Source: a virus
DNA length: 21,016 bases
Strand: one strand, 5' to 3'
IMG/VR virus record: IMGVR_UViG_3300042356_000450
Coordinates: 1 to 21,016 of that record
Shown here: piece by piece, positions 6,629 to 21,016 of the stretch
Numbering within the stretch: the stretch's first letter is position 1
How the letters are laid out: each line of letters starts with the position of its first letter
The notes under the pieces: generated by a model
Databases searched by the model: none
What the model saw: only the letters and a program-made list of their open reading frames with translations
Told to the model about the DNA's origin: nothing
Program-made: the position numbers and the translations under genes

Positions 6629-6631
6629 ATA
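6624..6631 (+). promoter_or_regulatory. Putative T4-type late promoter (AATAAATA)
   Basis: This octamer differs from the T4 late promoter box TATAAATA only at the first base. It overlaps the stop codon of the large structural gene and ends 25 bases before the chosen ATG at 6657. The same layout occurs at the two other boxes in this window. No -35 element is expected for this promoter class, which depends on a phage late sigma factor and sliding clamp. Confidence 0.5.
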
Positions 6632-6644
6632 CATGATGGAACAA

Positions 6645-6650
6645 AAAGAG
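6645..6650 (+). promoter_or_regulatory. Shine-Dalgarno site that decides the start at 6657
   Basis: AAAGAG lies six bases before the ATG at 6657. The in-frame alternatives (TTG 6597, ATG 6633, ATG 6636) have no comparable purine-rich site at a suitable distance. Confidence 0.5.
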
Positions 6651-6656
6651 ATAAAA

Positions 6657-7307
6657 ATGCCTAAAAATCAAGATCAATCAGCTCAAAATACACAATCTCG
6701 ACCCAACGAAACGGGCGGATTTAATTTTGAAGGTCATATCAAGATTCACGATCCTGAGACCAAAGAAATTTTTGTAGACAAACGCAATGCTATTCACTAT
6801 GAAAATATGAGTGTGGCCATGGTCAACAGTCTTAGTAATCAAGGATACGGTACAGTATATCAGATGATTTTTGGTACAGGCGGAACCACAGTCGATCCTA
6901 CAGGTCTTATCACTTATCTTACACCCAATACTGTTGGTGTTAATTCTAGCCTCTATAATCAAACCTACCAAAAAGTAGTGGATCAAAATGCTATTGAAAA
7001 CCAAGATCCTGTAAGAAATAAAATGGAAATTAGACATATCAGCGGAGCGACTTATAGTGATATTGTGATCAGCTGCTTGTTAGATTATGGAGAACCATTA
7101 GAACAAGAAGCATTTGACAACAGTGTTGACATGAATGGTGAATTTGTGTTTGATGAATTAGGATTAAAAAGCATCGGCCAAAACGGTGCTGAGGGAAAAC
7201 TATTAACACATGTGGTGTTTCACCCTGTGCAGAAAAGTCTTAACAGACTGTTACAGATTGACTACACTATCCGTGTGCAGAGTTTAACCGGATTCACTGA
7301 GATATAA
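6657..7307 (+). CDS. Conserved marine-phage virion structural protein (216 aa)
   Basis: The ATG at 6657 is chosen because it follows an AAAGAG ribosome site and a late promoter-like box. Longer in-frame versions would overlap the upstream gene. The N-terminal 15 or so residues are polar and Gln/Asn-rich. They lead into a segment with the motifs GHIKIHDPETKE and DKRNAIHYENMS (residues about 25-50), a glycine-rich stretch FGTGGTTVDPTG (near 75-90), and LLDYGEP and HPVQKSLNRLLQIDYTIRVQ near the C terminus. I recognise this pattern from structural proteins of marine T4-like phages but cannot give a T4 gene equivalent. No enzyme motif, signal peptide or membrane segment is visible. It ends two bases before the first fibre gene, so it is probably co-transcribed and co-assembled with the fibres. 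The structural role is inferred. Confidence 0.72.
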   Translation: MPKNQDQSAQNTQSRPNETGGFNFEGHIKIHDPETKEIFVDKRNAIHYENMSVAMVNSLSNQGYGTVYQMIFGTGGTTVDPTGLITYLTPNTVGVNSSLYNQTYQKVVDQNAIENQDPVRNKMEIRHISGATYSDIVISCLLDYGEPLEQEAFDNSVDMNGEFVFDELGLKSIGQNGAEGKLLTHVVFHPVQKSLNRLLQIDYTIRVQSLTGFTEI

Positions 7308-7309
7308 TC

Positions 7310-9427: not shown

Positions 9428-9438
9428 CAGAGTAAAAC

Positions 9439-11253
9439 ATGGCATATCAAATAAACAAAACTGACGGCACAATTGTAGCAACTGTAGCAGACGGCCAGAT
9501 CGACGATCTTTCCACTGATATCACTCTTATAGGAAAGAATTTCAGCGGTTTCGGCGAAGCATTTAACGAGAATCTTATTAAATTGCTAGAGCATTTTTCT
9601 AGTAATACAGCCCCCATACACCCCATTAAAGGTCAAATATGGTTTGACGCTAGCCAGTCAAAATTAAAAGTTTACAACGGTATTACTTTTGTTCCGGTAA
9701 GTTCGGCTACGGTATCGAGCTCCCAACCAAGCACACTGGCCACCGGTGACCTTTGGTATGACGATATCGGAAAACAACTATACTTTTTTGATGGGGTTAC
9801 AGCGGTGTTACTTGCACCGGCGTATAGTAGTGTGCAAGGTCTTAGCGGACTGAGAGTAGATACTATTTTAGATACACTAAATCAAACTAGGGTAGTAACT
9901 AGTCTTTATAATAATGGTGTGTTACTGGGAATTTTTTCCAAAGACAGTTTTACACCCAAAGTAGGAATCATAGGATTTAATGGCAATATAGAACCTGGTT
10001 TCAATGCAGGCACATTATCTAATTTTAAAATACGTGCGACTTGTATAAACAGCGATAGTTTAGGCGGAGCTCCGGCAACCACCTATGTTAGAACTGACAC
10101 TTCTAATAGCATAAATGGGCAACTGCAGATTACTAGTGATTTAGGTATCACAGTAGGTTCAGCAGGCCAGGCAAATCTATTTGTTAGTGCAGGAGATGTA
10201 TTGATAAGCAATGCTGCAACTGATAGGAATATTCAGTTGAGTGTTCGAAAGGGTATTACACAAGAAGCAGCTATCACGATTAATGCAGCAACAAGAAACA
10301 TCGATCTATATTCTGGATTTACCAACAGCACAGTGGTCGCCGGCGGCGATCTAATAGTCAATGGTAATCTCACAGTCGAAGGAACGACTACAACTATTAA
10401 TACCACAACAGTGGCGATAGAAGACAAAAATATTGTTATAGCTAATGTGGTTAGTCCTACAAACATCACGGCCGATGGTGCAGGTATCACAATCAAAGCG
10501 TCTACAGATAAAACTATAACTTACAACAACAGTAGTAATTGGCTTGATATATCCGAGACACTGAATTTAGCCGCAGGACGAGCAGTATATATTGGCGGAA
10601 CTAAGGTAATAGATGGCAACAGTCTGGGTTCGGCTATTACAAGTATTCCAGGAGTTAGTTCCTTTGGTACACAGACTGTAGTTAACATAGGTCCGGGTGC
10701 TCCTGCAGTCACTCAGATGAGACTGGAAAATCACAGAATCAGCACGGTGAGTACGAATTTTGATATTGAGTTAGAACCAGACGGCTCAGGAAATGTTGCA
10801 TTGATCGGGTCTCCAAGAATCACCGGCATGCAAGATCCTGTGGCAGCTCAAGATGCTGCCACCAAAGAGTATACAGATAACAGGGTGGAATCAAGACCTG
10901 TGATTTTTACTATTGATTTATCCGATGGCAAATCTAATACATATATTATTACAAACATATTGAATAATCTTGCTCCTGTGAGCGAGTATAGAGCATTCAC
11001 ATATGCTAGAATTTTATGTAATTTGATAAGCAATAACGCTCAATCTTTAAGTATAAATTCATTGCCACCGTCAATTTCCACAGCAGCATTTTTAACCAAT
11101 CTTGGTGGAGCCAGCAGCCAAGCAATCACAAACATTAGTTTCCCCACAGCAACTATAGCTGCGGCAAGTGTCTCGGTAACAAGAATTATCAAAGTATTTC
11201 GAATAATCGGAGGAGTGTGGACATGGCAGTCGGATCTACCACTACCTCCATAA
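9439..11253 (+). CDS. Tail-fibre protein, paralogue 2 (604 aa)
   Basis: Residues 1-130 carry the shared module: MAYQINKTDG, GFGEAFNENLIKLLEHF, GQIWFDASQSKLKVY and GDLWYDDIGKQLYFF, followed by IFSKDSFTPK. The beta-rich shaft contains the phage-fibre module NGNLTVEGTTTTINT...IEDKNI (starting near 307) and then ADGAGITIKAS. At about 464-480 the motif MQDPVAAQDAATKEYTDNRV occurs; similar DPxxxxDAATKxYVD motifs commonly sit just before the tip of phage fibres. The tip (485-604) is not recognised and ends in a Trp/Pro segment. It starts 11 bases after the collar-domain fibre gene, with CAGAG as a modest ribosome site. A receptor-binding or fibre-stem role is inferred. Confidence 0.8.
   Translation: MAYQINKTDGTIVATVADGQIDDLSTDITLIGKNFSGFGEAFNENLIKLLEHFSSNTAPIHPIKGQIWFDASQSKLKVYNGITFVPVSSATVSSSQPSTLATGDLWYDDIGKQLYFFDGVTAVLLAPAYSSVQGLSGLRVDTILDTLNQTRVVTSLYNNGVLLGIFSKDSFTPKVGIIGFNGNIEPGFNAGTLSNFKIRATCINSDSLGGAPATTYVRTDTSNSINGQLQITSDLGITVGSAGQANLFVSAGDVLISNAATDRNIQLSVRKGITQEAAITINAATRNIDLYSGFTNSTVVAGGDLIVNGNLTVEGTTTTINTTTVAIEDKNIVIANVVSPTNITADGAGITIKASTDKTITYNNSSNWLDISETLNLAAGRAVYIGGTKVIDGNSLGSAITSIPGVSSFGTQTVVNIGPGAPAVTQMRLENHRISTVSTNFDIELEPDGSGNVALIGSPRITGMQDPVAAQDAATKEYTDNRVESRPVIFTIDLSDGKSNTYIITNILNNLAPVSEYRAFTYARILCNLISNNAQSLSINSLPPSISTAAFLTNLGGASSQAITNISFPTATIAAASVSVTRIIKVFRIIGGVWTWQSDLPLPP
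9931..9956 (+). repeat. 26-base direct repeat, copy 2
   Basis: Exact copy of 7820-7845, at the equivalent place in the paralogous fibre gene. The bases on both sides differ at once (T/A before, G/C after). Confidence 0.85.
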
Positions 11254-11258
11254 TGAAT

Positions 11259-11264
11259 CAGGAG
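11259..11264 (+). promoter_or_regulatory. Strong Shine-Dalgarno site for the third fibre gene
   Basis: CAGGAG lies eight bases before the ATG at 11273, in the 19-base gap after the previous stop. It is among the strongest ribosome sites in the fibre cluster. Confidence 0.65.
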
Positions 11265-11272
11265 CGGCATAA

Positions 11273-13375
11273 ATGGCCTATGTAATAAACAAGTTCAACA
11301 AGGAACAATTAGTGGTGTTGCAAGATGGCACCATTGATACTACTACTAGTCTAGGATTGGTTGGTAGAAACTATGTAGGCTATGGCGAAATACAGAATGA
11401 AAATTTTGTGTTCCTCTTAGAAAATTTTGCTAATACAGCTCCTCCATCAAGACCGTTGACTGGACAGATATGGTTTAATACCACAAACGACATAGCTCAT
11501 GCCTATGATGGCACACAATGGAATCCTATAGGATCTGCTATTGTGAGTGCAACAGTCCCATCCAGTGCTAGCCCGGGATCGTTATGGTTCAAGACTCCTA
11601 TCAATCAATTGTTTACATATACCGGTACATCATGGAGATTGATAGGTCCAGAGGCCGTAGAAGGATTTGGATCTACCAAAGCAAGATCAGGAACACTGGA
11701 CGACAATACCGGTAATCCTCGTCCAGTGATATTCTTAGAAACCAATGGCGTGATATTTGCTATCTGCACTGCGGCAGCTTTTACTATCAACACAAACAAT
11801 CAAGTTGAGGGGTTCGGCAACAGTCTATTGGTGGGAATCAATCTTTCTAGCACAGCCAAGATCAATGGCAGTGTAACCGGCAATGCTGCCACAGCTGATC
11901 AGTTATCAACACCTAGACTAATCAATGGAGTACCATTTACAGCTGCGTCAAATATCACAATCACAGCAAATACTACCAATACATTGAAAAAAGGTGATTA
12001 TATTGTAGGATCAGATTTCAATGGTGCGGTGGAAAGAACATGGAACGTAGACGCATCGTCTGCCAATCTTATAGGCAAGATAGTTGCCAGAAATTCACAG
12101 GGCGGGTTTTCAGCAGGTATCATTACAGCAGATTTCGTTGGCAACCTTACCGGAAATGTCACAGCAACCAGCGGAACCAGCACATTTAACATAGTTCAGG
12201 CCACCCAATTTATTGGTGAACAGTTGTCCGGAAATGCAAACACTGCTACTAGATTAGCTACTGCTAGAACTATTAATGGTGTGAATTTTGATGGTTCTAA
12301 CAATATCACAGTCACAGCTGATGCTGCAACCTTGACGGGAAGCAGTCTTAATAATTCTGTGACACTGAGTGGACTCACACAGCTAGGAACACTGAGTTCG
12401 TTGAATGTCAGTGACACTGGAATATTGTTAGGCAGTGGAAATCAACTGAGGTTGTTTGTTCATTCGAGTGGTCCTACGATAAGATCTACTAGCGGAAAAT
12501 TAAAATTTGATATGTTAGGAATAGGACCCGAGTTATCGTTTATAGATGCTCCGGAATCATTGTCTTTAGGCGGTCCTAACGAGCCTGCAATTATTTCTGA
12601 TAATACATCAAATTTAGGTATTCCAGGTCATAAATTTAAGAATGTGTATGCAACATATTTCAAGGGCACTAATGTTGAAGTTAATAGCATAACGTCGGCA
12701 GACCCTGGTAATGATATAACAGCTAACGGCAATTTAATTGTAACTGGAAATTTAACAGTTCAAGGAAATGTAACAGCAGTCAATTCTACAGAACTTACAA
12801 TCGAAGACAAATTAATAACATTGGCCAGCGGAGCAGCTACAGCAGCTGAAGCTAACGGTGCTGGTATATTTATTAATGGGTCTGGCGCTTCGGTTATGTA
12901 TTCAAGCATTGGTAACAAGTGGGTTTTAAACAAAGTTTTAGATACAGGTAGTAATGATATTTTTACCACCGGGTTATTTAGAGGAACAGCAACAACTGCT
13001 CAGTATGCGGATCTAGCAGAAAATTATGTAGCTGACAGAGAATATGAACCTGGCACAGTTTTGGAAATTGGCGGAGAATATGAAGTTACTTTAGCTCACC
13101 CAGAAACTAATAAAATTGCTGGTGTTGTTTCTACTAATCCTGCGTATTTAATGAATTCCTTGTGTGCAGGCAACAATGTAGTTGCTGTAGCATTGCAAGG
13201 GCGAGTTCCGTGTAAAGTTACAGGAAAAATTAATAAAGGTGATATGTTAGTCAGCGCCGGTAACGGGTTTGCTAAAGCAACTAATCAACCGAAGTTCGGT
13301 AATATAATAGGTAAATCTTTAGAAAATTTTGACGGAACTGAAGGAATTATTGAAGTTTTAGTTGGAAGAAACTAA
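11273..13375 (+). CDS. Tail-fibre protein, paralogue 3, with YADLAE-type C-terminal tip (700 aa)
   Basis: The shared N-terminal module includes MAYVINKFNKEQ, GYGEIQNENFVFLLENFA, GQIWFNTT and GSLWFKTPINQLFTY. The shaft has two copies of a repeat containing TGNAATADQLSTPRLINGV and SGNANTATRLATARTINGV (about 204-225 and 319-342). A NLTVQGNVTAVNS...IEDKLI module begins near 484, homologous to that of the previous gene. The C-terminal 578-700 domain starts YADLAENYVADREYEPGTV and contains AGVVSTNPAYLMN, GRVPCKV and IIEVLVG. This tip is shared with the next gene. It resembles tip domains common in marine phage fibres and loosely resembles Peptidase_G2-type autocleaving chaperone domains; that link is a guess. 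The CAGGAG ribosome site supports the start. Confidence 0.82.
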   Translation: MAYVINKFNKEQLVVLQDGTIDTTTSLGLVGRNYVGYGEIQNENFVFLLENFANTAPPSRPLTGQIWFNTTNDIAHAYDGTQWNPIGSAIVSATVPSSASPGSLWFKTPINQLFTYTGTSWRLIGPEAVEGFGSTKARSGTLDDNTGNPRPVIFLETNGVIFAICTAAAFTINTNNQVEGFGNSLLVGINLSSTAKINGSVTGNAATADQLSTPRLINGVPFTAASNITITANTTNTLKKGDYIVGSDFNGAVERTWNVDASSANLIGKIVARNSQGGFSAGIITADFVGNLTGNVTATSGTSTFNIVQATQFIGEQLSGNANTATRLATARTINGVNFDGSNNITVTADAATLTGSSLNNSVTLSGLTQLGTLSSLNVSDTGILLGSGNQLRLFVHSSGPTIRSTSGKLKFDMLGIGPELSFIDAPESLSLGGPNEPAIISDNTSNLGIPGHKFKNVYATYFKGTNVEVNSITSADPGNDITANGNLIVTGNLTVQGNVTAVNSTELTIEDKLITLASGAATAAEANGAGIFINGSGASVMYSSIGNKWVLNKVLDTGSNDIFTTGLFRGTATTAQYADLAENYVADREYEPGTVLEIGGEYEVTLAHPETNKIAGVVSTNPAYLMNSLCAGNNVVAVALQGRVPCKVTGKINKGDMLVSAGNGFAKATNQPKFGNIIGKSLENFDGTEGIIEVLVGRN

Positions 13376-13388
13376 TAGTATTTGAATA

Positions 13389-13396
13389 GATAAATA
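13389..13396 (+). promoter_or_regulatory. Putative T4-type late promoter (GATAAATA)
   Basis: One mismatch, at the first base, from TATAAATA. It lies in the 48-base gap between fibre genes 3 and 4 and ends 27 bases before the ATG at 13424. This gap is the longest inside the fibre cluster, which fits a promoter here. Confidence 0.55.
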
Positions 13397-13423
13397 TAAA
13401 ACATAGCAGAGGTTCTTACTAAC

Positions 13424-15226
13424 ATGGCATATGAAGTCAACAAATTTAACGGTGTATTTTTAACGTCTGTAGCCGACGGCACCATCGACACCAATACCGA
13501 CCTAAGGCTAGTAGGTAAAAATTACGCAGGTTACGGCGAAGTGCAGAATGAAAATTTTGTGCACCTATTGGAAAATTTTGCCAATACAACAGCACCACCA
13601 AAAGCCATAACCGGACAAATTTGGTTTGATACAGCAATTAAAAAACTAAAATTTTATGATGGCGCTAAGTTTAAAACAGCCGGTGGTGCTGAAGCCAGCG
13701 CATCAGCACCTAGTGGATTATCTATCGGTGATTTTTGGTGGGACACAGCGGCTAAACAGTTGTATACATACACCGGGAATGATTTCACACTCATTGGTCC
13801 TATAGCTAGTCCCGATCTAGGCACATCAATTATTAGTCCGGCAGTGGTATATGGAACATTGGCTACTGCAGAAGGTCCTCATACTATACTTAAAGTCATA
13901 GCAGACAACAAAACCATAGCTGTGATCAGCAAGACTGCTTTTACTCTCGACACTAGTAAAAACCCCATTGACGATTTCACAGTGATTAAGAAAGGTGTAA
14001 CATTAGTAAAATCACAGACTGGTGTTTCTACGGATGATTTTACCTTTTGGGGCACCGCAAGCAATGCTACCAAGCTAGGCGGGTTCACCGCTGATCAATA
14101 TATTAAAACAGGTGAAAGTGCATTTATTTCTGAAGTGAATTTTGGTGATCCTGGATTTCAATTGGGCGATGGCAACGATCTCAGAGTCAGGGTTGAAAAC
14201 GGTACTGATGTAATTGTAGAAAATCGTTTAGGCAATGATATAACATTTAGGATCACAGTAGACGATGTTATCGATGAGAGAGATATTGCGATTATAAAAC
14301 GCACAGGCGTAGAACCTGGTATCTCTAATGCATACACATTAGGATCAACTACAAAGCGGTGGAGCAATGTTTTTTCTACAGCATTCACCGGTGCATTAAC
14401 CGGAGCAGTGACCGGAAACACCACAGGAGTTCATACAGGTAATGTGTTAGCCAATGACAGTACAGTTCTGATAAACGCTACGACGAAAGAAATAGGATTT
14501 GCCGGTGCTAATATTATTGGTACTCTTACTGGGTCAGTTACTGGGTCTGCGTCAACAGCGGTAAATGCCAGTAAACTAAACAATTTAGATCCGAGTGCTG
14601 TTATACCTGGATTAGCAATTTCGACAATAGCTGTGCGAAACTCCAACGGCGATATATTAGCCAATCAATTTGTAGGTATAGCAGACAACGCTGATAGAAC
14701 GTTCATCGATAGAACCAACGCAAGAATTGATCCTACGTGGGCGGATGGCACAGCCAGCACTCAATATAGAACTGCAAGAATCACAGCCACAGCTTACAGT
14801 ATAGCAGCTAGAGATGTCAGCGGTAACATCACCGCAAATATTTTTAATGGCACAGCCACAGCTGCTCGTTATGCAGATTTAGCTGAAAAATATCTTGCTG
14901 ATAAAGAATACGAAGCAGGAACAGTGATGATAATAGGTGGAGAAAAAGAAGTTACAGCCGGTGATGTTAATACTCGTGCTATAGGAGTCGTTAGTGCAGA
15001 TCCTGCTTTTATGATGAACAAAGATCTCGAAGGTGGGATATATGTTGCTCTCAAAGGAAGGGTTCCATGTAAGGCATACGGTTCAGTAACAAAAGGAGAT
15101 AGACTGATAGCTGGCCCAAGCGGCACAGCTATGGCAGCCCACGGTAATTATGCCAATGTGTTTGCAGTTGCTCTAGAATCAACCGGAACACGAACTGGCA
15201 ATATCATTGAAGTATTGGTGCTGTAA
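13424..15226 (+). CDS. Tail-fibre protein, paralogue 4, with YADLAE-type C-terminal tip (600 aa)
   Basis: The shared N-terminal module is closest to that of the previous gene: MAYEVNKFNG, GYGEVQNENFVHLLENFA, GQIWFDTAIKKLKFY and GDFWWDTAAKQLYTY. An 18-base stretch (13544-13561) is identical to 11393-11410. The second block reads VISKTAFTLDTSKN. The shaft contains glycine/threonine repeats such as TGALTGAVTGNTTG and LTGSVTGSAS. The tip at 483-600 starts YADLAEKYLADKEYEAGTV and contains IGVVSADPAFMMN, GRVPCKA and NIIEVLVL, matching the tip of the previous gene with moderate divergence. It lacks the NLTVQG module of genes 2 and 3, so the paralogues differ by gain or loss of central modules. AGAGG at 13408-13412 is a possible ribosome site, with longer than usual spacing. 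Confidence 0.82.
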   Translation: MAYEVNKFNGVFLTSVADGTIDTNTDLRLVGKNYAGYGEVQNENFVHLLENFANTTAPPKAITGQIWFDTAIKKLKFYDGAKFKTAGGAEASASAPSGLSIGDFWWDTAAKQLYTYTGNDFTLIGPIASPDLGTSIISPAVVYGTLATAEGPHTILKVIADNKTIAVISKTAFTLDTSKNPIDDFTVIKKGVTLVKSQTGVSTDDFTFWGTASNATKLGGFTADQYIKTGESAFISEVNFGDPGFQLGDGNDLRVRVENGTDVIVENRLGNDITFRITVDDVIDERDIAIIKRTGVEPGISNAYTLGSTTKRWSNVFSTAFTGALTGAVTGNTTGVHTGNVLANDSTVLINATTKEIGFAGANIIGTLTGSVTGSASTAVNASKLNNLDPSAVIPGLAISTIAVRNSNGDILANQFVGIADNADRTFIDRTNARIDPTWADGTASTQYRTARITATAYSIAARDVSGNITANIFNGTATAARYADLAEKYLADKEYEAGTVMIIGGEKEVTAGDVNTRAIGVVSADPAFMMNKDLEGGIYVALKGRVPCKAYGSVTKGDRLIAGPSGTAMAAHGNYANVFAVALESTGTRTGNIIEVLVL

Positions 15227-16128
15227 TGACTAGCGGAACACAAATATTTGCTTCGCAGTATGTGGCCATACAGGACAAGGCCGAATCTTTGTTAGGCATA
15301 GGATCTGCTACTAGGGGATATGGGCAAGCAGTGCAATCTTCGGATGTCTTCATCGGCAACTCGATCACCAAAGCACAGTGGGATCTATTGAGATTTGATA
15401 TCATCAATATAAGATTACATCAAGACGGTGTGATGCCCAATGTGGTGCAAGTTAATGTCGGCGATGCAATTGGATTTGGACCAAGTTCTCCAAATACCAA
15501 TTACGATATATTGTTAGAACAGGCTATTACAAATAGATTCAATCTTGCCGACAATCAATCCGTAGTCTCAGCTAAAGCCACACAGACATTCAGTTCTCCG
15601 TGGACAACACAAGCCCAGACAGTATTGACCTGTAACTTTGCTGATGCTACCACAGCCAGATATTTTTTCAATAGTGGTGGAAAAATCAGAATTACATCGG
15701 CGTTGACAGCTGGTGTATCAACCGCGCAGGTTACAGCTTGGGTAAACTTTTTGAACAGTGTTGGAACACGAAGCTTTGGTGCCGGCACGGATCCTACAGT
15801 TAATTACTACACTCTGACAAATTCTTATCAGACATTCTATCAAGATTCTCTCAGCAGCCCTTATTCTGCAAATAATTATAGACTTGAAGCCAAGACCGAT
15901 GTAGCAAATAACTCCACAGGAACAGCTACGCAAGTTCAGATACGTATTACACTGACAGACACGTATACTGATCCTGGACCAGAACCTAGTCCACCTCCAG
16001 GAGATTCTGTATCGGGCACGTTGACAGTAAATGTGGCAGAAGTCAAAGCTTCTGGACTGCTACAGCCATCAGGCAATTTTACAGTTACAGGACCGACATA
16101 TTCACTTTCAAGCATTGTAGCATCATAA
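15226..16128 (+). CDS. Putative virion protein, first of a paralogous pair (300 aa)
   Basis: The start overlaps the previous stop by one base (TAATG), which suggests translational coupling to the fibre gene. The N-terminal 60 residues contain QYVAIQDKAESLLGIGS, GYGQAV and WDLLRFDIINI. The middle contains ARYFFNSGGKIRIT, an FG-containing loop, and the SSPYSANNYRLEAK block (near 206-219), then LTDTYTDPG. A proline hinge (PPPGD from residue 256) leads into a short beta tail, GTLTVNVAEVKASG. All these landmarks recur in the next gene. I do not recognise a characterised family. The neighbours and the composition (Asn, Ser, Thr and Gly rich, with no signal peptide or membrane segment) suggest a structural or fibre-associated role. 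Confidence 0.7.
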   Translation: MTSGTQIFASQYVAIQDKAESLLGIGSATRGYGQAVQSSDVFIGNSITKAQWDLLRFDIINIRLHQDGVMPNVVQVNVGDAIGFGPSSPNTNYDILLEQAITNRFNLADNQSVVSAKATQTFSSPWTTQAQTVLTCNFADATTARYFFNSGGKIRITSALTAGVSTAQVTAWVNFLNSVGTRSFGAGTDPTVNYYTLTNSYQTFYQDSLSSPYSANNYRLEAKTDVANNSTGTATQVQIRITLTDTYTDPGPEPSPPPGDSVSGTLTVNVAEVKASGLLQPSGNFTVTGPTYSLSSIVAS

Positions 16129-16144
16129 TCTCTTAAATATTCTC

Positions 16145-17125
16145 ATGCCAGCTGTTAACAGTACAATAGTCCAAGCAGACTACAATTCGATAAGAAACAA
16201 AATCGTTGCTGTGTTAGGCAACGGCAGTGGAAACTCTGGATATGGTCAACAGGTCAGAATAGTCTCTACAGAAGTTCTTGAAGGACAACGAGTCACCATT
16301 AACGAATGGGCAAATCTACGATTTGACATCATCAATGCCTACAAGCACATCAACGGATCTAATCCGACTACGGCTGTGGTCGCAGACGGTGATACTATTA
16401 GATATACCAGTTCATTTACTCCTGATACCGGAACTCTCGACGTACCGCAAAAGCAATATGATGATTGGGCCGATAATATCACAACTAATAGATTTACGAT
16501 AGCCACTAGTGAATCAGCTACCACAGCAGCGACCACATCAAGCAGAACCGGAGCATGGATCAGCCAGTGTGAATGCGTCATACAGTTTTATTGGACCAAT
16601 GCCAATGATGCTAGATACTGGTTCAATAGTGGCGGTAAAATTAGGATCAGTGCGAGTCGAACCGGTGGGGTGCTTGGCACCCAGCAAAACACTAGTTGGA
16701 CTAGTCTTCTCAGTGCTGCAGGTACACAGAACTTTGGCGGTGCTGTGCCTAGTGCAGGAACTTCTCCTAACGATGGCACCAATTGGTATAAAACCACTAA
16801 TACTTTTCAAACATTTTATACAGCCACAGCCAGTAGCCCTTACGGATCTAACAACTATCGATTACAAGCTAGATGTGTTGATGTACCTTCGAACAGCGGA
16901 GGCACATCGGCTAGCGGTGAAATACGAGTGTTGTTCACAGACGGATACACCGACTCGGGTGCAATAGGTCCTCCGTTTTTAAACCCACCCCCGGGTGATG
17001 ACATAGATGGTACTCTCACAGTGAGTGTTTCGACATTATTTGCCACGGGTATCATGGCTCCTAGCAGCGCAGTATTCACCGTAACTCAACCCACAGTTTC
17101 TATTGGGGCTGTCACTGGCTCGTAA
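16145..17125 (+). CDS. Putative virion protein, second of a paralogous pair (326 aa)
   Basis: A diverged copy of the preceding gene. Shared blocks in the same order are GYGQQV, WANLRFDIINAYKH, ARYWFNSGGKIRIS, FGG, SSPYGSNNYRLQAR, FTDGYTDSG, the PPPGD hinge (281-285) and GTLTVSVSTLFATG. It is longer mainly through loop insertions, for example around GAVPSAGTSPNDGTNWY. The start at 16145 matches the start of the paralogue, but no clear Shine-Dalgarno site precedes it, so it may be read mainly by coupling or from an A/T-rich leader. Other reading frames are also long and open near 16500-16970, but they show no known motif. The function is unknown; a paired or hetero-oligomeric virion component is a reasonable inference. 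Confidence 0.7.
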   Translation: MPAVNSTIVQADYNSIRNKIVAVLGNGSGNSGYGQQVRIVSTEVLEGQRVTINEWANLRFDIINAYKHINGSNPTTAVVADGDTIRYTSSFTPDTGTLDVPQKQYDDWADNITTNRFTIATSESATTAATTSSRTGAWISQCECVIQFYWTNANDARYWFNSGGKIRISASRTGGVLGTQQNTSWTSLLSAAGTQNFGGAVPSAGTSPNDGTNWYKTTNTFQTFYTATASSPYGSNNYRLQARCVDVPSNSGGTSASGEIRVLFTDGYTDSGAIGPPFLNPPPGDDIDGTLTVSVSTLFATGIMAPSSAVFTVTQPTVSIGAVTGS

Positions 17126-17149
17126 TTTATTTCACACCACATAGTTCTC

Positions 17150-17157
17150 TATAAATA
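17150..17157 (+). promoter_or_regulatory. T4-type late promoter, perfect TATAAATA
   Basis: Exact match to the T4 late promoter box, in the 59-base gap between the structural genes and the glycosyltransferase cassette. It ends 27 bases before the ATG at 17185 and is followed by a strong ribosome site. This is the best-supported promoter of the window and probably drives the whole downstream operon. Confidence 0.72.
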
Positions 17158-17172
17158 AACTACGCAGTTTAT
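17155..17172 (+). repeat. Perfect 7-bp inverted repeat with 4-base loop
   Basis: ATAAACT and AGTTTAT flank the loop ACGC. The left arm overlaps the last three bases of the TATAAATA box, and the right arm ends one base before AAGGAG. There is no U-run after it, so a simple terminator is unlikely. In read-through RNA it could fold beside the ribosome site. RNA started at the late promoter would lack most of the left arm. Confidence 0.6.
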
Positions 17173-17173
17173 C

Positions 17174-17179
17174 AAGGAG
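17174..17179 (+). promoter_or_regulatory. Strong Shine-Dalgarno site AAGGAG
   Basis: Near-ideal ribosome site five bases before the ATG at 17185. It is the strongest in the window. Confidence 0.8.
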
Positions 17180-17184
17180 AACTC

Positions 17185-17535
17185 ATGAACGCACAGTTAA
17201 AAGCTGTATTGGATTTTGCCAATTATCAGCAGACTTTTTCAATCCACAAAAAAATTCTCAAAGAACGCACAGCTGCCAAACTGATGTACGGTTTCTCCGG
17301 CGGGCTGTTTGCCATTGATAGAAATCTGTTGACATTTGTTGAAATGCTGTGTAGCAAAGGCAGAGTTTCTGGAACGGTGCTGTTAGACGTCAATGAAAAT
17401 CCCATATTGATAGAAAATCTAGAAGCTTTTCGTGATGAAATCTTCAGCAGATATTTCGAAGTCACTAATGAATACTTTCAAGAATTTGATAAAATCAAGA
17501 AATCTAGATCTGTAGAAAAACTTATCACACAATGA
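17185..17535 (+). CDS. Small phage protein of unknown function (116 aa)
   Basis: First gene of the promoter-led cassette, with the strongest ribosome site of the window, so it may be made in quantity. The protein is mostly helical in character: a charged N-terminal helix (NYQQTFSIHKKILKERTAAK), a short glycine-containing segment YGFSGGLFAIDRN, then a likely beta-hairpin SGTVLLDVNENPILIENLEAF and a C-terminal charged helix EYFQEFDKIKKSRSVEKL. It has no signal peptide, membrane segment or catalytic motif. The VLLDVNENPILI segment resembles small conserved hypothetical proteins of T4-like marine phages. Its stop overlaps the next start as ATGA, so it is translationally coupled to a glycosyltransferase-like gene. 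The function is unknown; it may be a partner of the cassette or a small virion or assembly factor. Confidence 0.75.
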   Translation: MNAQLKAVLDFANYQQTFSIHKKILKERTAAKLMYGFSGGLFAIDRNLLTFVEMLCSKGRVSGTVLLDVNENPILIENLEAFRDEIFSRYFEVTNEYFQEFDKIKKSRSVEKLITQ

Positions 17536-18392
17536 CCAATGGCATTTTAATTTTCGCACACAATAATCGTGAAGTAGATTATGGATTATTAGCAGTGATC
17601 AGCGGCGGTCTTGCAAAAAAACATCTTAATGTTCCAGTTTCATTGGTCACAGATCTCAGCACCAAGGAATGGTTGATTGAATCACATACATGGCAGCAGG
17701 TTGAAACAGTATTCGAGCATGTGATAATTGTAGATAAACCTGTCACAGATAATCAACGTGGATTACACGACGGTGTAATCAATAAAAAAATACCATTTTG
17801 TAATACCAATAGACACTCTGTATGGGACCTCACACCCTACGATAGAACGCTACTGATAGACAGCGATTTTTTGATATTCAGTGATAATCTAAACAAATAT
17901 TGGAATGTGGAAGCTGACGTAATGATAGGTGATTCGATCAACGATATCTACAGTGAAGAAAGATTAGGCTACCTTGATAGATATGTCTGTGAAACCAGCT
18001 GTAAAATGTATTGGGCAACCACAGTGATGTTCACGAAAAATCCACAATCTAAACTGTTTTTTGATACTGTGAATTTAGTCAAAGAAAATTACAAGCACTA
18101 TGCTGATGTCTTCCGATTCGATCACAGACAATATCGAAATGACATAGCGTTTAGTGTTGCCAAACACATGCTAGATGGATTTGAGAACATGCACACACCA
18201 ACACTCCCACCCGTGTTATCAGTCATGGACAAAGACATACTCACTGCTGTCGACAAAGACAAATTAACATTCTTGATTGATCATCGATTAGATGCCACAT
18301 ATTGTGCAGCATCTGTGACTGGAGTTGATATACATGTGATGAATAAACAAAGTATATTGAGACATCGACAACAGTTAATGGAGTTGATATGA
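17532..18392 (+). CDS. GT8-like glycosyltransferase (286 aa)
   Basis: The N terminus GILIFAHNNREVDYGLLAVISGGLAKKH looks like the first strand and helix of a GT-A nucleotide-sugar fold. D110-S111-D112 in RTLLIDSDFLIF is a good DxD motif, which in this fold binds the metal and sugar nucleotide. ATTVMFTKN (162-170) fits the acceptor-side strand of GT8 enzymes. R202-N203-D204 in FDHRQYRNDIAFS matches the later conserved Asp region (ND/DE then AF). It overlaps both neighbours by four bases (ATGA), so it is tightly co-translated. The predicted action is cytoplasmic sugar transfer, with donor and acceptor unknown. The final family match would need profile searches, but the DxD context makes the call fairly firm. 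Confidence 0.72.
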   Translation: MTNGILIFAHNNREVDYGLLAVISGGLAKKHLNVPVSLVTDLSTKEWLIESHTWQQVETVFEHVIIVDKPVTDNQRGLHDGVINKKIPFCNTNRHSVWDLTPYDRTLLIDSDFLIFSDNLNKYWNVEADVMIGDSINDIYSEERLGYLDRYVCETSCKMYWATTVMFTKNPQSKLFFDTVNLVKENYKHYADVFRFDHRQYRNDIAFSVAKHMLDGFENMHTPTLPPVLSVMDKDILTAVDKDKLTFLIDHRLDATYCAASVTGVDIHVMNKQSILRHRQQLMELI

Positions 18393-19228
18393 ACTTTGGA
18401 TATCTGTTGTTTGTAGCACACTATGATGACATTGATTATCTCAAGTGCGCCTATGCTCTAGCTTTGAGTATAAAAACCACTCAAAAACCAGGGTATGACA
18501 GGGTGGCACTGGTAATTGACAACAAAGAATCACTTGCAAAATTATCAAGTCCGTGGGTGTTTGACACAGTGATCGAATGGGACCAAGAGAAATATTGGGA
18601 TGGCAGATCATGGATGGACCAACTGTCTCCGTTTGATCACACAGTATGCCTTGATGCTGATATGTTATTCCTACGAGATTACAGTCATTGGATTGATTAT
18701 TTTATTGCCAACAGCGAATTGTATGTGGCCAATCAGGTCTATACCTATAGAGGCGAAACAATCACAGATCGCACATATAGAAAAACCTTTGACAGAAATT
18801 GTCTGCCGGATTTATACTCCATGTGGACTTTTTTCTCTAAAGGATCTGTGCTATGCCAAGAATTTTTTGAATTAGGTCGACAGATTATAAAAAATCCCCG
18901 CGAATTCGCCAATCAGTTTTTAAGTGAACACAGGCCTAAGGTAATTGGCACAGATGAAGCATTCGCATTGGCTGCTAACATACTAGACATCACTGACGAC
19001 ATTGCCTACGATTTACCATTTCCTCGAGTAGTGCATATGAAACCAATGCTGCAAAAATGGCCATGGCCGGCTGATACTTGGAGCGATCATGTGGGATTTT
19101 ATCTTAATGCAGACGCTAGACTAAAGATAGGAAATTTTCAACAGAATGATATTGTGCATTACGTAGAGAAAAATTTAATCACAAATGAGTGTATACATAT
19201 CTTGGAGACTAAAGCATGGAAACTATAG
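18389..19228 (+). CDS. Second GT8-like glycosyltransferase (279 aa)
   Basis: GYLLFVAHYDDIDYLKCAYALALSIK is a typical first strand and helix of a GT8-like enzyme. D89-A90-D91 in HTVCLDADMLFL is the expected DxD metal-binding motif. GTDEAFALAAN (187-197) is the conserved acceptor-side block, and H216 in VVHMKPMLQKWPW fits the late His/Lys region that contacts the donor phosphates in GT8 enzymes. A TGGAG ribosome site lies about five bases before the start, which also overlaps the previous stop (ATGA). It resembles the upstream enzyme in layout but is well diverged, so the two probably use different substrates or act in turn. Acceptor candidates are virion proteins or host envelope glycans; this is inference only. 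Confidence 0.75.
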   Translation: MNFGYLLFVAHYDDIDYLKCAYALALSIKTTQKPGYDRVALVIDNKESLAKLSSPWVFDTVIEWDQEKYWDGRSWMDQLSPFDHTVCLDADMLFLRDYSHWIDYFIANSELYVANQVYTYRGETITDRTYRKTFDRNCLPDLYSMWTFFSKGSVLCQEFFELGRQIIKNPREFANQFLSEHRPKVIGTDEAFALAANILDITDDIAYDLPFPRVVHMKPMLQKWPWPADTWSDHVGFYLNADARLKIGNFQQNDIVHYVEKNLITNECIHILETKAWKL

Positions 19229-19833
19229 AAGATTTTGATAAATGGCTGAGAGAATACAAGCCACCAATTACACAGTATGTAGCGGTGTTTGATCCAAATA
19301 CGGGTCAAGTTATCAGCGTGGGGCCAGATCATGCTTTTGCAGATCAAAAACATATAGTGCAGATATCACAAGAAATTGCTGAATCCATAATCACAGCTGA
19401 AATACAGATACACAACTGTCAAATAAATGTAGAGTCAGGACAGTTAGACATAGCTGAAAAAAAGACACTAAACAAATTAGATGATGTGTTGCATAGAATT
19501 CCTGATATCAAATATTCAGATCAAATTGAATCGGATATACATATAACATATAATTCAAAAAACAAATATTTGAAAATTCAACTGTCTACAGAATACGGCG
19601 GAACCAAAAAATACAAAGGCAACGACGGAACAAGAAAATTTATTTGGGATGGTAGCACCGATCTGGATTTTTTAATCACAGATTACAACGATCCCAACTT
19701 GATTTTTCAGATGTTTTCTGTTAAACTAAATGAACTAATAGGGCATAATGTAACAATTAAAAATATTGACTATGATAAGTTTAGTGTGTATACAAGACGC
19801 CTATTTAAAAATTATGTGATTGAATATAAATGA
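19216..19833 (+). CDS. Conserved hypothetical phage protein (205 aa)
   Basis: The start overlaps the preceding gene by 13 bases and has a GGAG site (19204-19207) eight bases upstream. The N-terminal 60 residues resemble a small alpha/beta domain: QYVAVFDPNTGQVISVGPDHAF, then a helix HIVQISQEIAESIITAEI. The centre has a charged helix IAEKKTLNKLDDVLHRIP. The C-terminal half is beta-rich, with DIHITYNSKNKYLKIQLS, the charged turn YGGTKKYKGNDGTRKFIWDG, and a final region LIFQMFSVKLNELIG. No DxD or other catalytic motif, signal peptide or transmembrane segment is seen. It lies between glycosyltransferase-like genes with coding overlaps on both sides, so it is probably an accessory factor or acceptor for them. 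I do not recognise a characterised family. Confidence 0.72.
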   Translation: METIEDFDKWLREYKPPITQYVAVFDPNTGQVISVGPDHAFADQKHIVQISQEIAESIITAEIQIHNCQINVESGQLDIAEKKTLNKLDDVLHRIPDIKYSDQIESDIHITYNSKNKYLKIQLSTEYGGTKKYKGNDGTRKFIWDGSTDLDFLITDYNDPNLIFQMFSVKLNELIGHNVTIKNIDYDKFSVYTRRLFKNYVIEYK

Positions 19834-20747
19834 AAGTAATTGAATTTGATGTAGTTTTTTTAAGTTACGACGAACCTAACGCAGATCTGCATTATGCTGA
19901 CTTGTGTAATAAAGTACCTTGGGCTAAACGTATTCACGGAGTCAAAGGATCAGACCACGCCCATAAAGCCGCAGCAGAAGCCAGTGAAACAGATTGGTTT
20001 ATCACTGTTGATGCTGATAATATTGTAGATCCTAGATTTTTTAATATCGACCTTGACATGAGTGATCCCAAGATACAGGTCTATGGTTGGTGCGGCCGCA
20101 ATGCAATTAATGGTCTTCGATATGGCAACGGTGGATTGAAAATCTGGCGTAAAGATTTTGTTCTTAACATGAAAACGCATGAAAACTCCAACAGTGATCG
20201 CGGCCAAGTAGACTTTTGTTGGGAAGATGGGTATAGAAATTTTCCATTGACGTTCAGTGAAAGCGTTATCACAGGATCACCATTCCAAGCATGGAGAGCA
20301 GGATTCCGTGAAGGTGTTAAGATGACTTTGCTAGACGGGGTCAAAGTTCCTCCTATGGAAATTAAAGAACGCATATGGTGGCACAATATCCATAGACTGC
20401 GCATGTGGTCAACTGTGGGTGCTCACGAAGAAAACGGAATTTATGCAGTATATGGTGCTAGATTAGGAACATGGATGGCTAATTGCACACAGTGGAATTA
20501 TGTCGATGTTCGAGATTTTGAAATACTCAGAGATATATGGAATCAATACGGTAAACCGTATGAAGATGTAAACGGTGATGGTCTAGTAGATGAGATTAAA
20601 AATTTAGGCGAAAAAATAAAAATGAGTTTGGGATTAGATTGGCCGTTTCTTGATGCGCAGCAAAGTAAATTTACTTTAGATTTGTATAATGAAACCATGA
20701 ATCTCAACGACACTTATTTTAAGATGCCGGTGCCAGCCAATGTATGA
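19830..20747 (+). CDS. Phage glycosyltransferase-like protein with calcium-loop-like motif (305 aa)
   Basis: FDVVFLSYDEPNAD opens a GT-A-like domain, and WAKRIHGVKGSDHAHKAAA matches phage proteins in which a conserved GVKG segment precedes the active region. D61-A62-D63 in WFITVDADNIVDPRF is a likely metal-binding DxD. The middle has NAINGLRYGNGGLKIWRKD, and an aromatic region CWEDGYRNFPL. Near the C terminus (246-257) lies DVNGDGLVDEIK, which fits an EF-hand or dockerin calcium loop except that the twelfth position is Lys. The family is common in marine T4-like phages; the reaction is unproven. The start overlaps the previous stop (ATGA). A role in modifying virion or host glycans is inferred from the cassette. 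Confidence 0.72.
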   Translation: MKVIEFDVVFLSYDEPNADLHYADLCNKVPWAKRIHGVKGSDHAHKAAAEASETDWFITVDADNIVDPRFFNIDLDMSDPKIQVYGWCGRNAINGLRYGNGGLKIWRKDFVLNMKTHENSNSDRGQVDFCWEDGYRNFPLTFSESVITGSPFQAWRAGFREGVKMTLLDGVKVPPMEIKERIWWHNIHRLRMWSTVGAHEENGIYAVYGARLGTWMANCTQWNYVDVRDFEILRDIWNQYGKPYEDVNGDGLVDEIKNLGEKIKMSLGLDWPFLDAQQSKFTLDLYNETMNLNDTYFKMPVPANV

Positions 20748-21016
20748 TATTTTTTATGTTTCAAAAGGCGAAGGAAATACTAAAGATTGGAATGCAATAA
20801 AGTCTAGGTATCCCCTTGCTCAAAAATTAACAAACATAAAGTCTTACGAAGAAATTCGATCTAAATCTTTTACAAAAATGTTCTGGGTAATCTGGGACGA
20901 TATAAATCTTACAGAATTTAATTTATTAGATTATAAAGCCACTAAGTGGGATGACATGTATGTTCACGTTTTTAAAAACGGAGAACACTATGATGGTATT
21001 TGTTTGTTTCCTAAAT
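20740..21016 (+). CDS. Partial phage protein related to the preceding glycosyltransferase-like gene (3' cut by window)
   Basis: The ATG at 20740 overlaps the previous stop by eight bases, and the frame is open to the right edge (92 codons seen). The N terminus YDIFYVSKGEGNTKDWNAIKS aligns with the opening of the preceding protein (FDVVFLSYDEPNAD), and the segment YPLAQKLTNIKS matches its WAKRIHGVKG stretch. FWVIWDDINL sits where that protein has its DxD strand, but with WDD in place of DAD. KATKWDDMYVHVFKN and YDGICLFPK complete the visible part; this wording is familiar from marine T4-like phage proteins. The full length and active-site state cannot be judged. No strong ribosome site is seen, so coupling to the upstream gene is likely. 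Confidence 0.7.
   Translation, partial: MYDIFYVSKGEGNTKDWNAIKSRYPLAQKLTNIKSYEEIRSKSFTKMFWVIWDDINLTEFNLLDYKATKWDDMYVHVFKNGEHYDGICLFPK

Follow-up and report, generated by a model that had tools for sequence, protein, structure and literature searches.

Transferase genes behind the tail fibres of large uncultured water phages form a probable operon that runs on into radical-SAM enzymes

What do enzymes resembling sugar transferases do when their genes lie directly behind the tail-fibre genes of a phage? The question is raised by the end of the stretch of viral DNA analysed here (21,016 nucleotides, referred to as the window), where six open reading frames on the + strand are joined by overlaps of exactly 4, 4, 13, 4 and 8 bases, as the preliminary description had read them and as was reproduced from the ORF coordinates. 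The first gene, s116 (17185-17535), encodes a 116-aa protein whose function was not assigned from sequence. It is followed by GTa (17532-18392; a 286-aa putative GT8-like glycosyltransferase with DSD at residues 110-112), GTb (18389-19228; a 279-aa GT8/glycogenin-like putative glycosyltransferase with DAD at residues 89-91), u205 (19216-19833; 205 aa, likewise not assigned from sequence), GTc (19830-20747; a 305-aa predicted GT-A-fold glycosyltransferase with DAD at residues 61-63) and the 5' end of mGT (20740-21016), of which the window holds the first repeat only. The cassette had been described as a self-contained set of four genes starting at 17532; instead, it starts at 17185 with s116, has six ORFs in the window and continues beyond it through the rest of mGT into radical-SAM genes; in the contig G001 it spans some 13.8 kb with about 13 genes. 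The last gene is indeed partial, being cut by the window end, but its whole copies in 35 distinct relatives are 344-973 aa long and are followed by the radical-SAM genes. Overlaps were present at all five junctions in 63/63 loci with all six genes called, and the exact 4/4/13/4/8 pattern in 46 of these 63, a count that is favoured by choosing the start nearest the query start and that includes a few first genes cut by contig ends. The six genes probably form one transcription unit, within an operon of transferase genes that lies directly behind tail-fibre genes and runs on into radical-SAM enzymes in large uncultured water phages.

Four tail-fibre-like genes precede the cassette on the + strand (7310-9427, 9439-11253, 11273-13375 and 13424-15226). 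The first matches Pfam Collar (E 2e-17), the first and third, which were the two scanned, match PHROG tail and tail fibre families, and the second and fourth have, by sequence reading, an N-terminal domain in common with the others. Next come two fibre-cluster proteins on the same strand, a1 (15226-16128, 300 aa) and a2 (16145-17125, 326 aa), both candidate acceptors. Among the listed relatives, an a1/a2-like or fibre gene was found upstream of s116 for 58/58 distinct s116 proteins whose contigs extend 3 kb or more in that direction, and fibre-cluster genes for 22/22 with 6 kb or more; in a test independent of s116, fibre genes lay upstream of 58/58 distinct GTb proteins with 4.5 kb or more. 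The fibre neighbourhood, for which the preliminary description had suggested a check in metagenomes, was therefore borne out in all testable cases of both counts, and it holds even for relatives with identities as low as about 30%. A possible exception is L273, a contig from a bacterial bin with GTa-GTb-GTc and a radical-SAM gene, without s116 and with no fibre-profile match in the 5.4 kb upstream. The full run s116-GTa-GTb-u205-GTc-mGT was present in 68 of 97 distinct GTb proteins among the listed relatives, and 12 of the 97 had the same run without s116, with GTa/GTb starting within 140 bases of a contig end. Among the matches listed, s116 was directly followed by GTa in every s116-holding locus of three sets (71/71, 35/35 and 68/68). 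The sets, which share contigs, comprise the best 80 of 508 GTc relatives, the best 80 of at least 596 and the best 80 of at least 531 relatives; proteins cut by contig ends or more than 20% off the expected length were dropped before the upstream, order, linkage and identity counts.

On the downstream side, three genes of the relative L010 scored 307.5, 294.7 and 285.5 bits against N_Twi_rSAM (NF033640; curated cut-off 170), and a fourth radical-SAM gene, cut by the locus end, scored 38.6 bits. The family was found above its curated cut-off in 10/10 contigs examined, and a radical-SAM gene lay downstream of GTc in 48/48, 39/41 and 36/36 loci with at least 6 kb among the matches listed in the three sets. 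The number of these genes varies, and they are inverted in L127, L134, L138 and L142. The carriers appear to be T4-like phages: a gp23-type capsid protein (PF07068) was found in 4/10 contigs, G001 included (E 4e-97 or better; the other six contigs are shorter), and in 2/4 further contigs, while the window itself contains no capsid gene. The gene before the fibres of G001 is long, coding for 4605 aa, and nucleotide-sugar genes (PF02719, RmlD) occur in this contig outside the cassette. A plain hydropathy scan of cassette ORFs (12 in G001, 11 in G002 and 10 in G003, an overlap rule having dropped one G001 radical-SAM ORF, from 149,356) revealed no TM-like stretch, and in the same three contigs, large but incomplete, neither GtrA (PF04138; control found in 7/14 genomes) nor the Wzx flippase family PF01943 was detected; both results fit a cytoplasmic acceptor, for example a virion protein. 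These incomplete contigs also gave no match to PF00303 (thymidylate synthase/dCMP hydroxymethylase family; control in 9/14 genomes), and the cassette and downstream proteins that were scanned included no recognisable transporter or protease.

The cassette is preceded by a T4-type late promoter-like motif (17150-17158, + strand), with TATAAATA at 17150-17157 and the core TAAATAA at 17152-17158, 33 bases before s116. Although TATAAATA has a single copy in the whole 21-kb window, at least one copy occurred in 86/100 shuffles, so that the single copy is at chance level. The motif is significant because TAAATAA is kept at that spot, and not from the TATAAATA count: of the 73 distinct 60-mers that precede the cassette among the listed relatives, 59 contain the core, 58 of them at -31 to -35, against 0/346 upstreams of four inner cassette genes used as controls. 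A sister lineage, which accounts for 10 of the 14 distinct upstreams without TAAATAA, has a sigma-70-type promoter before the cassette, and in G013 of this lineage the structural-region genes keep TAAATAA while the cassette has the sigma-70-type promoter; cassette expression may therefore start early there. The late timing proposed earlier is thus in line with the motif of most relatives but is not uniform. The claim that the best promoter of the window leads the cassette did not hold, since the best sigma-70-type match of the scanned region (6500-21016) lies at 18789, inside the GTb gene, and it is the TATAAATA motif that leads the operon; a sigma-70-type site as leading promoter was accordingly discarded, the sites in that region numbering 51 against 43.5 +/- 6.1 in shuffles, near chance. 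Two other candidate signals were rejected. TATAAATA alone is not enriched (12, 5 and 9 copies in G001, G002 and G003 vs 24.0, 22.6 and 28.7 expected), and a hairpin around TAAATAA, whose stem reached 5 or more in 7/59 relatives vs a mean of 2.2 and a maximum of 6 in re-paired controls, showed no excess when whole contigs were scanned.

GTa, GTb and GTc are very probably glycosyltransferases, as predicted from alignments and modelling. The DSD and DAD motifs pointed out earlier were confirmed, and neither acidic residue varies in the alignments of 47 (GTa), 45 (GTb) and 31 (GTc) sequences, which include the window. Glycogenin is a protein-glucosylating enzyme, and the GTb profile matches it significantly (19 sequences, best E 4.2e-5, residues 9-100), whereas the GTa profile lists only glycogenin among PDB entries, at a non-significant E of 0.13. 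In the GTa family PF01501 was matched by 4/47 members (best E 0.002), and in the GTb family by 0/45 at E up to 0.1, with PF11051 in 5/45 and PF03407 in 1/45; a Pfam search with the window's own GTa and GTb gave nothing at E up to 1. GTb, and weakly GTa, thus resemble the nucleotide-binding half of glycogenin/GT8 (PF01501) including the DxD, while the C-terminal half is unmatched by both. GT8 enzymes have the C-terminal motif HxxGxxKPW; towards their C-termini, GTb (H216/K218) and GTa (H268/K272) have an invariant H and K whose spacing differs from it, and the glycogenin match of GTb ends before this region. Of the "two GT8-like enzymes" claimed earlier, the designation has a significant match behind it for GTb, the GTa match being weak.

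GTc confidently has a GT-A fold according to its AlphaFold2 model (pLDDT 90.9, pTM 0.89, built from a deeper alignment, a shallow one having given pLDDT 35.5), in which strand 56-61, a central strand, ends at the first D of D61-A-D63. A fold search returned the capsid glycosyltransferase of PBCV-1 (PDB 2p72/2p73/2p6w, Z 10.0-10.1), tied with unrelated nucleotidyltransferases, and the top match of a Foldseek search of the PDB was the peptide S-glycosyltransferase SunS (E 6.9e-5). Both have the GT-A fold in common with GTc over about residues 1-150, at 15-17% (PBCV-1) and 11-12% (SunS) identity; the Foldseek rows spread over several families, and the fold rows barely cover the region beyond about residue 231. 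Against Pfam nothing reached the cut-off (PF13704 at E 0.11), and the PDB matches of GTc profile A9, ammonium transporters at E 0.0035 and GmaR at E 0.1, were judged to be chance. GTc is under purifying selection (dN/dS 0.05-0.07) and is, by sequence identity, the most conserved protein of the cassette, exceeding GTb in 64/74 loci of the set chosen by GTb, among the matches listed; in the pair G001-G002 one radical-SAM gene reached 86.5% vs 88.7% for GTc. A claim that GTc is as conserved as the major capsid protein was cut back to this statement, because its ranks of 2/151 and 11/129 came from contigs selected by GTc similarity and because in G011, selected by the repeat protein, it ranks 41/125 (77.2% vs 88.8% for the capsid protein).

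The remaining proteins are less readily assigned. Window s116 has no match in Pfam or PHROG at E up to 1, and its family of 36 members has scattered PHROG matches only (E 0.0045 or weaker). The least conserved of the five genes whole in the window is u205, with 16-67% identity to the window protein among 41 relatives, and its profile finds no match in 6 distinct cases with the order s116-GTa-GTb-GTc-mGT; a C2_DCK match (E 0.0016) was below cut-off and was not used. Both proteins have conserved positions over their length. The mGT of L010 is 769 aa long, identical to the window in the overlapping part, and consists of about five 105-residue units, which resemble half a glycosyltransferase without its DxD, followed by an intact C-terminal glycosyltransferase domain.

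Searches with GTa, GTb, GTc, mGT and one distant GTc and mGT domain gave no match in 50,697 phage records. In bacteria, six Bdellovibrionota loci have a GTc relative beside the same radical-SAM family and no fibres, which weakens a role in fibres only; in the bacterial contig L292 a GTc relative lies beside genes read as GT2-like, and five Rhodobacteraceae loci and L285 have GTc relatives without other cassette genes.

It is plausible, and our tentative preference, that the targets of the cassette are adhesin and tail-fibre proteins made by the phage itself. The cassette's own promoter, which is late-type in the lineage of the window, would drive s116, GTa, GTb, u205, GTc and mGT and then the N-twitch radical-SAM enzymes. 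The products would be soluble and act in the cytoplasm during assembly, bringing radical-SAM and glycosyl chemistry to side chains of the tail-fibre and adhesin proteins encoded just upstream, and the mGT repeat protein would bind sugars or be a multivalent acceptor. For these enzymes, the activity, the sugar donor, the acceptor and the step order are what we infer. Counted for own-fibre modification are the fibre linkage (58/58), the GTc fold matches including the PBCV-1 enzyme and SunS, the likeness of GTb to glycogenin, the radical-SAM genes, the lack of TM stretches and flippase and, as a precedent, the jumbo phage XacN1, described as encoding two glycosyltransferases, with at least two glycoproteins found by proteomics (PMC5852040). 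Counted against it are the sigma-70-type promoter of the sister lineage, GTc in fibre-free bacteria, L273 and the nucleotidyltransferase ties. A further point against it is that enzymes of the GT2 and GT8 families are also used to make surface polysaccharide.

A strong rival, because GTc relatives occur in fibre-free bacteria, is that the enzymes alter the O-chain or another surface glycan of the host and thereby keep progeny or competing phages from sticking to infected cells or debris (superinfection exclusion). We regard this as somewhat unlikely, even though the sigma-70-type promoter of the sister lineage would permit early action, GTc relatives lie beside GT2-like genes in L292 and also occur in other bacterial loci without fibres, G001 has PF02719 and RmlD genes elsewhere, and host O-chain modification has been suggested for similar, GT8-rich fibre islands of pelagimyophages in the available part of the published account (PMC7029224). 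The late-type motif dominates (59/73), the tested ORFs have no TM-like stretch and the three large, incomplete contigs have no GtrA or PF01943. O-antigen conversion modules are not known to include a radical-SAM array or a repeat protein. A modified peptide or small glycan outside the virion, RiPP-like or secreted, for which u205 or s116 would be the precursor or carrier, would be suggested by radical-SAM and glycosyltransferase genes next to small proteins, by SunS as top Foldseek match and by the fibre-free pairing of GTc with radical-SAM genes in Bdellovibrionota; it is improbable, since typical precursors are short while these proteins have about 205 and 116 aa and are conserved lengthwise, neither a transporter nor a protease came to light among the scanned proteins, and the strict fibre linkage would be unaccounted for.

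The T4 alpha- and beta-glucosyltransferases glucosylate a modified DNA base, and the relatives with gp23 (PF07068) are T4-like, but a similar role for the transferases here seems most improbable given the lack of PF00303 in the incomplete contigs G001, G002 and G003 and the location of the cassette in the fibre region and not among replication genes. That the cassette is a passenger in an insertion-tolerant fibre region, with no functional tie to the fibres, would agree with the varying number and the inversions (L127, L134, L138, L142) of the radical-SAM genes, with L273 as the nearest to a fibre-free GTa-GTb case, also without s116, and with the hypervariability of this region in relatives, as described in the part of the source available (PMC7029224); the fixed order (68/97 full runs, 12/97 without s116 at contig ends), the purifying selection on GTc and the linkage in 58/58 cases make it highly improbable.

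If fibre proteins are modified, host range would depend on post-translational chemistry invisible to sequence-based fibre prediction, and radical-SAM chemistry would gain a role in virion assembly; if the host surface is modified instead, the cassette would be a strongly conserved exclusion system. The carriers, large water phages that turn up frequently in the viral contig collection, were not found among the phage records searched. It is tempting to speculate, although we consider it unlikely, that a phage assembly line couples radical-SAM chemistry and glycosylation on fibre proteins, that the DxD-less half-domains of mGT, variable in number, serve one active domain as a multivalent scaffold that reads the acceptor, and that the GTc-mGT-radical-SAM half common to predatory Bdellovibrionota reflects a shared way to remodel attachment structures.

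Among known systems, gtr-type O-antigen conversion modules carry a GtrA flippase-like membrane protein and T4-type DNA glucosylation needs a dCMP hydroxymethylase (PF00303 family), whereas PF04138 and PF00303 were each found in 0/3 cassette contigs, which may be incomplete. Closer to the proposed role are the mycobacteriophages Che8 and Rita, with glycosylated capsids (as cited in PMC11256854), and XacN1, where phage-encoded glycosyltransferases are tied to glycosylated phage proteins; a Che8 glycosyltransferase appears at rank 17 in a fold search with GTc, as a weak match (E 6.5e-4, TM 0.34), and the available portions of these accounts mention no radical-SAM array or repeat protein (PMC11256854, PMC5852040). 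The T4-like environmental genome TARA_ERS488813_N000010 resembles the cassette carriers, in a comparison by description only, in its many radical-SAM genes, reported as 12 and treated as iron-sulfur metabolism in a main text, as available, from which "glycosyl" is absent (PMC5332604). The closest known system is the host recognition cluster of pelagimyophages, which lies between the VrlC gene and the neck gene gp14. In the available part of its description, it is a T4-like island behind the fibres with several glycosyltransferases, GT8 being the most represented, and with radical-SAM cassettes in some genomes; it is variable and non-syntenic, and its freshwater members are without LPS-related and radical-SAM genes (PMC7029224). 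Compared with that cluster by description only, the cassette keeps one gene order in 97 distinct cases, with few exceptions, and has a promoter motif of its own.

The genes behind the fibre cluster form a real and conserved set. The cassette opens with s116 (17185-17535), followed by GTa (17532-18392) and GTb (18389-19228), both putative GT8/glycogenin-like transferases, then u205 (19216-19833), the GT-A-fold transferase GTc (19830-20747) and the repeat protein mGT, of which only the start lies in the window (20740 to the window end). The successive overlaps of 4, 4, 13, 4 and 8 bases reported in the preliminary description are exact in our ORF calls; the limits it set for the cassette were too narrow, since its start omits s116, its final gene is truncated by the window, and the cassette reaches radical-SAM genes in the longer contig G001. 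Several longer IMG/VR contigs encode proteins 100% identical to those of the window, including locus L010 on G001 (281,658 bases), in which the whole mGT has 769 aa. There, radical-SAM genes and two further ORFs come after mGT, overlapping or nearly so, until 152,610, beyond which the strand switches; by our own count the run from s116 (138,849) to the switch comprises 13 genes in 13.8 kb.

A single cassette gene order was found in 80/80 loci (the best 80 of 508 GTc relatives), as far as the DNA of each locus extends. Additional locus sets were queried with the mGT domain and with GTb (best 80 of at least 531), so that selection was not on GTc alone; the three sets have contigs in common. In the GTc, mGT and GTb sets, respectively, s116 has GTa immediately behind it in 71/71, 35/35 and 68/68 loci, a fibre gene or one resembling a1 or a2 (the fibre-cluster proteins directly upstream of s116) lies within 3 kb upstream in 47/47, 20/20 and 44/44 testable loci, and an N-twitch radical-SAM (rSAM) gene follows GTc in 48/48, 39/41 and 36/36 loci with enough sequence, the two without it being L139 and L148. 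The linkage of cassette and fibre genes, which had been proposed as a check in metagenomic contigs, holds for 58/58 distinct s116 proteins and, when s116 was not required, for all 58 distinct GTb proteins with more than 4.5 kb upstream, each of which is accompanied by s116 as well as by a fibre gene or an a1/a2-like one; locus L273, described below, is a possible exception. A fibre N-terminal domain was present within 6 kb of 22/22 distinct s116 proteins. Among 97 distinct GTb proteins, 68 have the full order s116-GTa-GTb-u205-GTc-mGT, 12 have this order minus s116 (every one at a contig end), 6 lack u205, 2 are rearranged with mGT ahead of GTc, and the remaining 9 are shorter runs. The rSAM genes are inverted in L127, L134, L138 and L142. 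Locus L023 points to an exchange whose breakpoint would lie between u205 and GTc: its GTc shares 97% identity with the window and the first part of its mGT 85%, against 47-69% for the neighbouring genes.

The later cassette genes also occur apart from the earlier ones. In 18 of the 80 mGT-set loci (the best 80 of at least 596) none of s116, GTa, GTb and GTc was found; of the seven inspected, four have mGT amid long genes read as structural (L131, L141, L144, L183), two have it inside islands of sugar-like or rSAM genes (L140, L152), and L188 has an rSAM gene about 3.5 kb upstream. Bacterial and archaeal genomes contain GTc relatives at 25 loci, which counts against a role restricted to fibres. 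Nine of these loci (L270-L272, L275, L276, L278, L286, L287, L290), whose MAG contigs bear the labels of one archaeon and of various bacteria, carry the cassette with s116 and fibre or a1/a2-like genes, and are probably misbinned phages. Six Bdellovibrionota loci (L274, L277, L288, L289, L291, L293) have GTc and N-twitch rSAM genes without fibres, together with mGT in L277 and L293, and five Rhodobacteraceae loci (L280-L284; Tateyamaria, Ruegeria, Cribrihabitans) have GTc alone of the cassette genes, as do L285 and L292, in the latter adjoining genes read as GT2. L279 has mGT-like and rSAM genes, and L294 an mGT-like gene alone. L273, from a gammaproteobacterial bin, carries GTa-GTb-GTc-rSAM without s116, behind two long proteins unmatched by fibre profiles; it is possibly a divergent variant or the single exception to fibre linkage. 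Since s116, GTa and GTb were detected neither in the Bdellovibrionota rSAM loci nor among the Rhodobacteraceae ones, the cassette looks like two halves, a fibre-tied s116-GTa-GTb and a GTc-mGT-rSAM part able to stand elsewhere.

The AlphaFold2 model of GTc (31-sequence alignment; pLDDT 90.9, pTM 0.89) predicts a GT-A fold in the N-terminal residues 1-150, with an invariant DAD. The top Foldseek PDB matches are the glycosyltransferases SunS (E 6.9e-5), PcManGT, chondroitin polymerase and hyaluronan synthase, with HddC also within the first five. In the VIA fold search the PBCV-1 capsid glycosyltransferase (Z 10.0-10.1) is tied with nucleotidyltransferases such as IspD, and the modelled fold thus indicates a sugar-nucleotide type of enzyme and not its acceptor. 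The two top matches in a viral structure library are 804- and 1076-aa proteins from uncultured phages (E about 1e-15), which by their length look like mGT relatives. The GTb profile (45 sequences) matches glycogenin with E 4.2e-5, and some GTb members match PF11051 or PF03407; for GTa glycogenin is the sole profile match and is non-significant (E 0.13), while 4/47 members match PF01501. GTa and GTb resemble each other weakly: they share 22% identity, with E 5e-5 when the 21-kb record was searched. The GTc fold model and the GTb match support the original reading of the cassette enzymes as glycosyltransferases. Pfam and PHROG searches gave no family assignment for s116 or u205.

The 35 distinct whole mGT proteins span 344-973 aa and end in a domain related to GTc (33-34% identity), with DGD as its motif in 29 and DAD in 6. 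Ahead of it are units of about 105 aa whose alignment covers the N-terminal half of the GT domain, with WPE, WDD, WPD or a similar tripeptide in place of DxD. By motif count there are 1-6 units per protein (0-6 with a stricter motif), and from these sequence features the units may be non-catalytic binding repeats of variable copy number.

Late expression, as initially proposed, is likely in the window's lineage and doubtful in a sister lineage. TAAATAA is found in 59/73 distinct s116 upstreams, 58 of which have it at -31 to -35, and in 0/346 upstreams of the four inner genes. Between -60 and -12 it precedes 8, 10 and 10 ORFs of the longer contigs G001, G002 and G003 (1.2, 1.0 and 1.4 expected), which by reading include sheath-like, head-region and fibre genes and also non-structural-looking ones, e.g. 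DnaJ-like. Such a pattern fits a late promoter of T4 type from which the genes would be transcribed as a single unit. A sigma-70-type promoter, with up to 2 mismatches of 12 allowed, stands in 10 of the 14 s116 upstreams that lack TAAATAA, compared with 2/59 of the others, and it is this promoter class that makes late timing doubtful in the sister lineage. The sigma-70-type promoter was observed at the place of TAAATAA in L139, L145, L147, L156, L157, L160, L162, L177, L178 and L198. In contig G013 s116 is preceded by TTGACA-17-TATTAT, and the counterparts of G001 structural-region genes retain TAAATAA; G014 (L189) has neither promoter type ahead of s116.

Among G001, G002 and G003 the dN/dS of GTc is 0.052-0.074, close to that of the capsid protein (0.060-0.117) and of an 889-aa protein taken for DNA polymerase (0.045-0.050); the three values that could be estimated for GTa/GTb are 0.14-0.20. 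By identity GTc ranks 2/151 and 11/129 among reciprocal best hits, and 41/125 in a genome not chosen via GTc.

Of the cassette ORFs of G001, G002 and G003, 12, 11 and 10 were tested and none shows a TM-like stretch; nor does any of these incomplete contigs have a member of the GtrA, PF01943 or PF00303 families. Both observations make a soluble acceptor more likely than lipid-linked glycans or a T4-type glucosylation of DNA, and a virion protein is a plausible candidate target. The capsid gene of G001 is of the T4 gp23 type (PF07068, E 5.8e-99). The long protein encoded at window positions 2-6628, corresponding to the last 2208 of 4605 aa in G001, is about 30% identical over 29-30% of its length to structural proteins of jumbo-phage virions, e.g. 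those of Pseudomonas phage PA5oct. Two further islands were observed in G001. Of its 18 NF033640 matches, the cassette region accounts for 5 and a second, larger island at 230,269-258,476 (L094, L095) for 13, and 15,938-32,737 (L083, L084) is a nucleotide-sugar and glycosyltransferase island, in which nine scanned proteins gave PF02719 (E 2.5e-96), RmlD, GT2, GT8, methyltransferases, a cupin and a 2OG-Fe(II) oxygenase. The latter island could be the source of the sugar donor of the cassette.

GTa, GTb, GTc and mGT had zero tblastn matches among 50,697 phage records (E limits 1e-5 to 1e-2), nor did a distant GTc or a distant mGT domain match there, and literature searches, with most subscription papers outside their coverage, found no description of this cassette. 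In pelagimyophages a host recognition cluster has been described that combines fibres with GT8-type transferases and, in a subset of genomes, with radical-SAM cassettes; the role proposed for it is a change of the host O-chain (PMC7029224). Glycosylated phage proteins are known as well: proteomics revealed glycoproteins for XacN1 (PMC5852040), and PMC11256854 cites glycans on mycobacteriophage capsid proteins. Radical-SAM genes number 12 in a T4-like genome from the ocean (PMC5332604). The cassette belongs with the fibre-linked islands of glycosyltransferase and radical-SAM genes known in T4-like phages.
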